A DNA stretch of 64,000 nucleotides, taken from positions 70,930-134,929 of the forward strand of contig JAIXYN010000006.1 in NCBI GenBank assembly GCA_027490195.1. The letters are read 5' to 3'. Made by a program: the position numbers and the translations under genes. Positions 7,563 through 39,660 of the stretch are shown one piece after another. Position 1 is the first letter of the stretch, and each line of letters opens with the position of its first letter. A model generated the notes under the pieces. It saw only the letters and a list, made by a program, of their open reading frames with translations. It ran no database searches and was not told the DNA's origin. This stretch comes from Verrucomicrobiaceae bacterium (GTDB taxonomy: Bacteria; Verrucomicrobiota; Verrucomicrobiia; Verrucomicrobiales; Verrucomicrobiaceae).

Positions 7563-8450
7563 ATGACCGCCGAATTCTTCCAGCAGATCACCACCCACGG
7601 AGCCGCCGTGAATCTTTCCTCACGCGCCAAGCTCCGCCTCACCGGCGCTGACCGCATTCGCTATCTCAACGGCCAGGTCACCAACGATATGCGTCAGGCC
7701 CAAACAGATGAATCAATCTATGCCTGCGTGACCGATGTGAAGGGCCGCATCGCAGCAGATGTGTTTGTGCATACCGAGGGCGATTCACTGCTGCTGGACG
7801 CCGAACCCGATCTTCGCGAGACACTGGGCATGCGACTGGAGCGCTACATCGTGGCCGATGACGTGGAACTGACTGATGTCACCGAAGATTGGCAGTTCTG
7901 GCATGTCTGGGGCGGCACGGACACTCTTGCCAGCACGGAGAGCATTCATTGCTCAAATGAATTCCCTCATCACTTCCTGCGTTCATCACGTTTCGCCCCC
8001 CTAGGCATCGATCTTTGGCTGCCAGCCTCCGTCCCCCCTCCCACATTCGACGCGCACCCCATTTTGAGCGACGCCGACCTCGAAACCTGGCGCATCCTGC
8101 AAAAAATCCCCCGCTGGCCACAGGAACTGAACGCCGAAACATTCCCGCCGGAAGCGGGACTCGAAGGCAAGGCCATGAACTTCACCAAAGGCTGCTACAT
8201 CGGCCAAGAGGTGCTCTCACGCATCAAGACCACCGGCAAAATGCCGCGCGAAATGATCGCGTTCGAATCCAACTCACCCGTGAATTCAGGCGATGAACTC
8301 TGGATTGAAAAGAACGTCGGCAAAGTCACCAGCGTGACAAAGCATCCCGCCACCGGCCAGACCATCGGCCTCGCCATGATACGGCAGGGATCATCCCCTG
8401 ATGCTCTGCATATCGGCAGCAGCACAGGGCCTTTGCTCAGAAGCCGCTGA
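7563..8450 (+). CDS. ygfZ: Folate-binding protein YgfZ (GcvT-like)
   Basis: The 295-residue protein belongs to the YgfZ/GcvT folate-binding family, which supports maintenance of iron-sulfur enzymes and uses tetrahydrofolate. The diagnostic KGCYIGQEVLSR (about residues 209-220) contains the family K-G-C-Y-x-G-Q-E motif with its key Cys. The N-terminus has the expected LTGADRIRYLNGQVTNDM block. It is divergent from the receptor-like gene; about 98 bases separate the two chosen starts. The C-terminal beta-barrel is present but short. No glycine-cleavage genes are adjacent. Confidence 0.93.
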   Translation: MTAEFFQQITTHGAAVNLSSRAKLRLTGADRIRYLNGQVTNDMRQAQTDESIYACVTDVKGRIAADVFVHTEGDSLLLDAEPDLRETLGMRLERYIVADDVELTDVTEDWQFWHVWGGTDTLASTESIHCSNEFPHHFLRSSRFAPLGIDLWLPASVPPPTFDAHPILSDADLETWRILQKIPRWPQELNAETFPPEAGLEGKAMNFTKGCYIGQEVLSRIKTTGKMPREMIAFESNSPVNSGDELWIEKNVGKVTSVTKHPATGQTIGLAMIRQGSSPDALHIGSSTGPLLRSR

Positions 8451-8463
8451 TACCACGCACAAC

Positions 8464-8634
8464 TTAGACCCGTTCTCAAAAAGATTGTCATTTTGAACCG
8501 GCGAGCGCAGCGGCCCCAGTGGCAAGGAGAGTGCGCCACCTGCTATTTGTAAATAACAGGCAAGCACACGACGCAGCCAATGGGGCTGCTCCGCCGCCCG
8601 GGCAATGGGACAAGATTTTTGAGAGTTGGTCTAA
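8464..8634 (+). repeat. 171-bp near-palindromic MITE-like element, copy 1
   Basis: The ends are TTAGACC and GGTCTAA, and similarity between the arms continues inward: TCTCAAAAA...TTGTC near both ends, GGC(G/A)GCG-CAGC/CGGCCCC in the middle, and CCTGCTATTT/AAATAACAGG around the centre. The whole unit can fold into one long imperfect hairpin. An inverted copy at 27341-27511 has the same length and about seven differences (about 96% identity). There is no internal gene. TA dinucleotides lie just inside both ends, as expected for a TA-target element, but this is not proof. Confidence 0.92.
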
Positions 8635-8800
8635 AACAGGTCTGTATTCCGGACGCAGCGGAAACCTGTTCCCAAACCGATGCAAGGCCCGGCGCTCGGG
8701 GCTGTAGGTTGGTCGTGTTTCGCGTCCAAAGCATTTCATCGCCCAGCGCTATCTCCGCCAAACCGCCCGACTGCGAGGACCTTCGCACTCCCCAGCATTT
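8635..8800 (+). repeat. Dispersed repeat family E, copy 2
   Basis: It abuts the right end of the 171-bp element and carries TAGGTTGGTCGTGTTT then CTCCGCCAAACCGCCCGAC like 4447-4620. The rest of the gene-free gap 8451-9027 holds nothing I can name. Confidence 0.75.
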
Positions 8801-8956
8801 GCCGTGCGCGCACAGACACCTCCCATTCTTCGCACTGTGCGCTTCAAAACTCACTGCGTAGTTTCCCAGACAGCCTGTGAGACCCTCCGCTATCCTTCTC
8901 ACGAAGGGGGATCTTTAGTCTCATTTTCAACTGCGCGTGGTATGACTTCGGCTGCC

Positions 8957-27340: not shown

Positions 27341-27511
27341 CTAGTCCAACTCTCAAAAGTCTTGTCACATTGCCCGGGCGGCGGAGCGGCCCCATTGGCT
27401 GCGTCGTGTGCTTGCCTGTTATTTCCAAATAGCAGGTGGCGCACTCTCCTTGCCACTGGGGCCGCTGCGCTCGCCAGTTCAAAATGACAATCTTTTTGAG
27501 AACGGGTCTAA
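27341..27511 (-). repeat. 171-bp near-palindromic MITE-like element, copy 2
   Basis: This is the inverted copy of 8464-8634 with the same length and about seven differences, mostly at the TAGTCC end. It lies 38 bases downstream of the PL6 lyase stop. The flanking TAGGTTGG...TTCGCATGCC (minus strand) looks like a shortened family E repeat, so an element may have entered or abutted family E here too. Confidence 0.92.
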
Positions 27512-27549: not shown

Positions 27550-28776
27550 TCAAGGGTGCTTCCAGGATGGGCCTGTGGGTTCGGCGGCAGGGGATGGAAC
27601 GACGTTTGGCTGCTCTTTGTCGGTCTGGTTGTCCTTCATGGTGACACCATCCACGGCGCATTTGATTTCGAAGGGCTCGGCTTTGTTGGTCTGGATGTGA
27701 TTGCCACTGATCTCGGTTTCGAGCGGGGGGAGAGTGGCTTTTTTGTCGCCGCTCATGCCGATGAGGATGTTGTGTTTGCAGTTGATGAAGGTGTTATTGG
27801 TGACTTTGGCGCGTTTGACTTGGAAGTAGCCGTTGGGGACTGAATCGGGGATGCCGAGCATGATGCAGAGGGCGCTGCGTTCGTCGTCGCCGGTGAGATT
27901 TTCGAAGCGGTTGTTGGTGACGGTGTGGTCTTCGCCGATGATGCGGACGCCGCCGGTGCCTTTGGCTCCGTCGCCGATGAAGGTGTTGTGCTCGACGGTG
28001 CAGGCGTTGCCGTGGCGGAGGGTGAGGGTCCCGGAGACGCCTTTGAAGGTGTTGTGGCGGTAGAGATTGCCGCAGGATTTGTTGGAGATGCACTCGGCTT
28101 CGCCATCGCATTTCTCGAAGAGGTTGTGCTCGACGATGCAGGAGGCGGTTTGCATCGAGGTCTTGCTGTCGCCGAGGCGAATGGTTTCGCCGCCGTTCTT
28201 GCCGAGTCTCTGGCGGGGGCCGAAGTGATTGTGATCGATCTGGTGCTTGCCCTGTTCTTTGGATTCGTTGGAGAGCCAGACGACCATGGTGGTGCCCTGG
28301 GTGGTTTTGCCGGCGATGTAGCAGTGGTCCACGCGATTGCGCGCGCCGTAGATGGAGACGAACTGGGAGGAGGCTGTGGAGGCGAGCTGGGTGTCGTTGG
28401 TGACGGCGCAGTTGGTGATGCGGGAGTCGCTGGCGAGTTGCTTGGAGTCTTTGCGGAGTTCGATGACTTGCTCGGCGGTGGGGTTCTGAAACCAGAGGCC
28501 GTCCACGATGATGTGGGAGCCGCCGACGGAGATGCGGGAGGTGCCGGTGAGGATGACTTTGCCGGGGGTCTGGGCTTTGATGGTGACTGGTTTTTCGGCG
28601 GTGCCTTCGGCGTGGATTTTCAGATGGGCATCGGCCCAGGTGCCGTCGTTGAGGATGAGGGTGTCGCCTGCGTTGATTGTTTGGGCGGCGGCGGCGAATG
28701 CGGCGGGATCGGCGATGGGGATGTCTCTTGCCAGAGCGGGGATGGCGAGGGCTAGGGCGAGGAGGGCGTGGCGCAT
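27550..28776 (-). CDS. Secreted polysaccharide lyase family 6 (alginate lyase / chondroitinase B-like)
   Basis: The 408-residue exported protein starts with a short signal peptide (MRHALLALALAIPALA). It is a right-handed beta-helix of family PL6: NGGETIRLGDSKTSM, CDGEAECISNKSCGNLYRHN, then GTLTLRHGNACTVEHNTFIG carry the family's Lys and Arg catalytic residues (SNKS and LRHG) and the calcium-binding acidic residues. It should cleave uronic-acid polysaccharides by beta-elimination; alginate is the commonest substrate of bacterial members. KDG kinase at 41.4 kb could use products of such a pathway. Pro-rich C-terminus. Confidence 0.92.
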   Translation of the reverse strand: MRHALLALALAIPALARDIPIADPAAFAAAAQTINAGDTLILNDGTWADAHLKIHAEGTAEKPVTIKAQTPGKVILTGTSRISVGGSHIIVDGLWFQNPTAEQVIELRKDSKQLASDSRITNCAVTNDTQLASTASSQFVSIYGARNRVDHCYIAGKTTQGTTMVVWLSNESKEQGKHQIDHNHFGPRQRLGKNGGETIRLGDSKTSMQTASCIVEHNLFEKCDGEAECISNKSCGNLYRHNTFKGVSGTLTLRHGNACTVEHNTFIGDGAKGTGGVRIIGEDHTVTNNRFENLTGDDERSALCIMLGIPDSVPNGYFQVKRAKVTNNTFINCKHNILIGMSGDKKATLPPLETEISGNHIQTNKAEPFEIKCAVDGVTMKDNQTDKEQPNVVPSPAAEPTGPSWKHP

Positions 28777-39158: not shown

Positions 39159-39336
39159 GAAGTGAGTACGGCGAGGGTTAGCGTATCATTACGGCGTGGG
39201 GGGCGGTGATGCAGACACGATTGAGGCCAAACTTGGTGCTTTTGTGATGGGGGGGGACACGAGGGGTGTCGCATCGCCCAACCCCATGCTGCAATGGCTT
39301 CGCCATCGGTGGGGTAATTGAAGTGGGCTCAGGGCG

Positions 39337-39660
39337 GCGCGACCGGAACCGGCTGAAGCCGGGACTACAATACGTGCGCTGTGGACTGCGGGGTGATGGG
39401 GGATTTTCGCCCTGTGACTTCAAGCTATGTGGCACTGCTTTGGTATGCGCTGTGGGTAGCGCGACCGGAACCGGCTGAAGCCGGGACTACATTACGTGTG
39501 CTGTGGAGTGCGGGGTGATGGGAGGATTTTGGCCCTGTGACTTCAAGCTATGTGGCACTGCATTGGTATGCGCTGGGTAGCGCGACCGGAACCGGCTGAA
39601 GCCGGGACTGCATTACGTGTGCTGCGGTGATTCCAGAACGAGCTGAAGCTCGGGAGTACT
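39337..39660 (+). repeat. Tandem 121-122-bp repeat carrying hairpin family B
   Basis: Units start at 39337, 39459 and 39580. Each begins GCGCGACCGGAA, then CCGGCTGAAGCCGG, then GACTAC or GACTGC, CA(A/T)TACGTG, and two units continue with GCTGTGGA.TGCGGGGTGATGG and a shared CTTCAAGCTATGTGGCACTGC. The third is cut short and is followed by GAACGAGCTGAAGCTCG (39636-39652), a related hairpin. The gap 39159-39670 holds no gene. Confidence 0.9.

Follow-up and report, generated by a model that had tools for sequence, protein, structure and literature searches.

A near-palindromic MITE of Verrucomicrobiaceae, probably of the IS630 type, concentrated at gene 3' ends

Short repeats of three other bacterial groups offer the closest described parallels to the element reported here. 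RUP is described as a short palindromic intergenic MITE with ends that match those of IS630-Spn1 and with a TA target, which is enriched between convergent genes and nests mutually with other repeats (PMC2229807, PMC3049150, PMC10969869). The Correia/NEMIS elements of Neisseria are MITEs of about 107-155 bp, whose RNA stem-loops in neighbouring mRNAs were proposed as RNase III targets (PMC2229807). QMITE2 of Coxiella burnetii (150-190 bp) has a stable stem and lies mostly in 3' untranslated regions (PMC5896051).

The element analysed here occurs twice in a stretch of 64,000 nucleotides (the window), which lies on contig C92 of a 6.98-Mb Verrucomicrobiaceae draft genome in 101 contigs (G000). 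It is very probably (about 90%) a non-autonomous IS630-family MITE that would be moved by a transposase of the partner type described below, that is concentrated at gene ends and whose hairpin has been conserved. The two copies (8464-8634 on the forward and 27341-27511 on the reverse strand; Table 1) were of equal length, inverted relative to each other and identical at 164 of 171 positions without gaps, and they formed the top-scoring inverted pair within the window. Two 171-bp near-palindromes of approximately 96% identity in opposite orientation had been described in the first-pass annotation, and the alignment bears this out. Of the ends given there (TTAGACC...GGTCTAA or a variant), the outermost base on each side belongs to the flank, and one end of copy 2 reads GGACTA-G. 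The TA dinucleotides placed just inside both ends were also present, and are the target-site duplication. The repeat unit is thus 169 bp long (TA, 165 bp, TA), with the element proper running from GACC to GGTC, and consists of ends around a hairpin core only, with no transposase gene.

Table 1. Coordinates within the window of the two MITE copies and of neighbouring features
Feature	Position	Strand	Remark
MITE copy 1, including TA duplication at both ends	8465..8633	+	Element proper 8467-8631
MITE copy 2, including TA duplication at both ends	27342..27510	-	Element proper 27344-27508
Left terminal inverted repeat of copy 1 (TAGACCCGTTCTCAAAAAGATTGTC)	8465..8489	+	Shared by the relatives' 1129-bp IS630 element
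Right terminal inverted repeat of copy 1, inward reading TAGACCAACTCTCAAAAATCTTGTC	8609..8633	-	
295-aa gene with Pfam GCV_T and GCV_T_C matches	7563..8450	+	Stop codon 14 bp ahead of copy 1
408-aa gene	27550..28776	-	3' end 39 bp away from copy 2
Family E repeat, host of copy 1	8451..8943	+	About 325 bp without the MITE

Altogether, 23 family matches were found in G000, about 14 of them complete or nearly so at 78-100% identity, and the family was present in 16 of 56 relatives, which included Verrucomicrobiaceae/Verrucomicrobia MAGs. A wider search of the order gave 30 positive genomes out of 387, with matches at E <= 0.001 in 5 of 50 genera. Full-length copies were obtained in two genera of the family, namely the element's own genus and g21 (82-83% identity), which rules out restriction to a single genus, and three further genera gave short matches only. 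A plasmid search returned no match to the MITE, and no Rfam family was matched above its gathering score. All of the 71 full-length copies compared were 166-170 bp long, and TA flanked both ends in 58 of them. In G015 (C3:42453-42806, locus L175), two MITE copies of equal orientation lie about 20 bp apart.

For eleven G000 sites, the two flanks were joined across a single TA, and the resulting sequences were searched for in 48 genomes of the genus. Precise empty sites were found in relatives for L007 (three), L004 (three) and L009 (two), and the aligned relatives cross these points with one TA, or with TG in the case of a TGA stop codon; L011 was also empty in more than 10 genomes, with small length differences at the junction. 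For window copy 1, the empty site (ACAACT-TA-AAACAGG) is given by family E paralogues of the same genome that lack the insertion (92-95% identity). Copies that were 95% identical occupied unrelated sites in G000 and G020, and only one orthologous filled site was seen among the 71 full copies, common to relatives G018 and G033. The first-pass view of a multi-copy, recently mobile MITE is therefore upheld by the number of matches, the copies in relatives and the empty sites with their TA duplications; neither confinement to two sites nor orthologous conservation in distant relatives was observed. A fixed host regulatory palindrome, vertically inherited and immobile, could account for the well conserved length and fold and for the site shared by G018 and G033, but this is refuted by the precise empty sites, the TA duplications, the nesting with family E and the near-identical copies at unrelated sites, and we regard it as extremely improbable.

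Copy 1 had been reported to abut family E repeat DNA; the contact is real, and the copy in fact lies inside the E repeat. The shortened E-like sequence reported beside copy 2 was not recovered (no E-like match at E <= 1e-3 next to it), and the proposed preference for E sites did not hold, copy 1 being alone in lying within E among the 14 near-complete G000 copies. Conversely, E was found inserted into MITE copies at three G000 loci (C22:5173-5666, C59:172815-173030 and C73:90322-90752), so both families have been mobile and the nesting is mutual, with no MITE preference for E. Family E itself has inverted ends (TACCACGC...) and more than 40 matches in the genome, and looks like a second TA-inserting MITE, its ends resembling those of the single DDE_3 IS630 element, on contig C37 (locus L071). 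A further short repeat family is present in the window as a tandem-like array (39324-39655) of approximately 122-bp units with GACCGGAACCGGCTGAAGCCGGGAC palindromes.

The partner transposon was found by scanning the genus for the end motif. Four elements of 1129-1130 bp in relatives carry MITE-like ends of about 25 bp at both sides (TAGACCRGTTCTCAAAAAGAATGTC and variants), one of which (G057:C365:17269-18397) is 1129 bp long with an intact 344-aa open reading frame. The transposase, P0001, matched the NCBIfam IS630 model NF033545 (203.8 bits, cut-off 100) and Pfam DDE_3 (PF13358; 102.1 bits, cut-off 28.6), with a winged-helix match in addition. The other full-length copies were located in G057 (79%, with a broken frame), G022 (81%, with an intact one) and the MAG Bin_29_9 (91%), while G009 held an internally deleted copy of 839 bp. 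Transposase and MITE copies occur together in both G022 and G057, and G022, with its intact transposase, is among the MITE-richest genomes (18 copies in the analysed set). The full transposon with the same ends that the first-pass annotation had proposed to look for thus exists in relatives and is absent from the G000 draft, in whose 101 contigs neither a P0001 match nor an IS630 copy with MITE ends was detected; for this reason, present mobility in G000 is unproven. Many G000 contigs begin or end within E copies (C5, C9, C15, C25, C49 and C59), so transposons may hide in assembly gaps. Two candidate partners in G000 were rejected: the only DDE_3 transposase of this genome (C37:4065-4484) has different ends, which resemble family E, and at C83:95577, where 18 bp match the end perfectly, a second end and a transposase are lacking.

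Because the partner transposon in relatives has ends of about 25 bp in common with it, the MITE was probably mobilised by IS630: the transposase of the relatives would bind the MITE ends in trans, then excise the MITE and insert it at a TA. REP/REPIN sequences are short (20-40 bp) GTAG- or CGTC-tagged palindromes moved by a RAYT transposase. A long, intergenic palindrome would also suit an element of the REP/REPIN or IS200/IS605 kind, moved as single-stranded hairpin DNA by RAYT/TnpA, but the TA duplication and the ends held in common with an element encoding an IS630-family DDE transposase refute this, and its probability is close to nil; with a 169-bp unit, a TA duplication and a DDE-type partner, the family does not belong to REP/REPIN.

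For the context statistics, genes were called with a simple codon-based gene caller, and intergenic TAs in 464 kb of three genomes served as the null. Genes contain 71% of the TAs, yet none of the copies lies within an intact gene. For the 50 copies with both neighbours called, the flanking genes were convergent, tandem or divergent in 26, 21 and 3 cases, respectively, relative to an expected 9, 34 and 7 (p about 2e-9). Among independent sites, 31 of 69 were within 30 bp of a gene 3' end, compared with 12% of intergenic TAs (odds ratio 5.7, p about 8e-11), and both window copies fit this pattern, lying 14 and 39 bp past a stop codon. In 19 of 72 copies (expected 5%), the adjoining gene stops on the element's own terminal TAG; for 18 of these 19 copies, reconstruction of the pre-insertion codon gives TAA or TAG. 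Each end gives TAG when read inward, so that a TAA or TAG stop codon hit at its TA is left as a TAG stop in frame. The exact insertion point reads TAG, TGA or TAA in relatives at L004, and TGA or TAA at L007; furthermore, the Pfam matches of several neighbour proteins are complete, reaching the domain ends (2-oxoacid_dh 231/232, TspO 145/145), and these are therefore natural gene ends. An origin of the stop-codon cases in truncated genes was rejected, because random interior insertions predict about twice as many other reading-frame endings, of which only two were seen. At two G022 loci (L160 and L166), MITE copies sit in the stop codon of a conserved short frame (M-x-NRKALIQK-x-FSAVF), which may encode a leader peptide or be the remnant of a duplicated gene.

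Read most cautiously, this distribution means that gene ends are where copies survive or land, and that the TAG ends make stop codons safe sites. It is somewhat more likely than not that the location is a footprint of selection only, in which case insertion would be random among TAs, harmful insertions would have been lost and the TAG ends would be coincidental for IS630 termini; this explanation opposes targeting and leaves the identity of the MITE untouched. It agrees with the lack of copies in intact genes, and in the pneumococcus, an excess of RUP, BOX, SPRITE and IS elements between convergent genes has been read in the same way (PMC3049150). In the 30-bp zone at 3' ends, moreover, the excess of insertions at stop-codon TAs relative to other TAs was only marginal (p = 0.055). 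Enrichment at stop codons nevertheless persisted when only sites in YTAR context were considered (12 of 43 insertions versus 7%, p = 3e-5). There is a small chance that the TAG ends serve for docking, with stop-codon TAs favoured by the transposase or by whatever DNA or transcription state it senses. If so, every insertion would restore a stop from either end and leave a selected RNA hairpin directly behind the gene, and the mini-transposon would be adapted for harmless or useful landing at gene ends. With a quarter of its copies in self-rebuilt TAG stops, the family constitutes a natural test of how MITEs spare their host.

The predicted fold energies were about -87 and -84 kcal/mol for copies 1 and 2, respectively. 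As RNA, copy 1 reached -87 kcal/mol as compared with -52.7 +/- 4.3 kcal/mol for 200 dinucleotide shuffles (z = -8.0), none of which folded as well. Across 35 diverse copies, standard pairs occupied 89.6% of the cells of the consensus hairpin, and 24 pairs had changed on both sides; in the controls, none of 500 shuffles reached the observed values, and slid partners paired in 33-46% of cells. On a tree of the copies, double changes mapped to 15 branches at true partners versus 2-7 at shifted partners. Mismatches and bulges at fixed positions of the hairpin were retained, which argues against simple copy-correction from arm to arm. These compensatory changes across divergent copies indicate that the single-stranded form of the hairpin is probably under selection. 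Changes from standard pairs on the oriented strand gave 71 G-U against 36 A-C (35 against 20 in the inner stem, p = 0.06), an excess that suggests selection at the RNA level and is borderline without the ends. The folded strand, most likely an RNA hairpin in the 3' untranslated region, may be what selection sees, and the hairpin may lessen the harm of an insertion or act in transcript ending or processing.

A stronger form of this last idea is that the hairpin was recruited to terminate transcription in both directions or to signal 3'-end processing, and that useful copies were kept. The position of copies just past stop codons and between convergent genes, the compensatory changes in the stem and the preference for G-U over A-C at paired positions, as expected under RNA selection, are all in line with this. 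However, no classical stem-plus-T-run terminator was predicted in the element, a native terminator-like hairpin is still present downstream of the element at L007, and most sites are not common to different species; such co-option appears rather unlikely. For the MITE as here interpreted, filled and empty orthologous loci, such as the ribulose-phosphate 3-epimerase gene at L007 and its counterparts in relatives, allow a direct comparison of its effects on transcripts.

Compared with described systems, the family resembles RUP in its IS630-like ends, TA insertion, enrichment between convergent genes and mutual nesting with other repeats, and differs from it in length (171 bp relative to 107 bp), phylum and partner. 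RUP is densest 50-150 bp from genes (PMC3049150); the Verrucomicrobiaceae family, by contrast, peaks at the stop codon itself, and the RUP sources report, in their accessible text, no stop-codon placement. Correia/NEMIS elements are likewise short MITEs, but differ in host and copy number, and the partner transposase of the Verrucomicrobiaceae element has been identified in relatives. QMITE2 is similar in size range, 3' untranslated location and stable stem; unlike the present family, it has variable-sequence duplications of 7-11 nt and not TA, contains a GTAG REP and is an IS1111 target. With IS630 transposons the element shares its ends and the TA duplication; in relatives, the full-length partner carries the gene for an IS630 transposase, whereas the window element is made up of ends and hairpin core. 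A literature search yielded neither a Verrucomicrobiaceae MITE family whose transposase partner is known nor a MITE that lands in and rebuilds stop codons; its coverage was incomplete, and it is hence no proof of novelty. The family is very probably a new IS630-type MITE family of the pneumococcal RUP kind, and is distinctive in its stop-codon positions with a rebuilt TAG and in the measured covariation of its hairpin.
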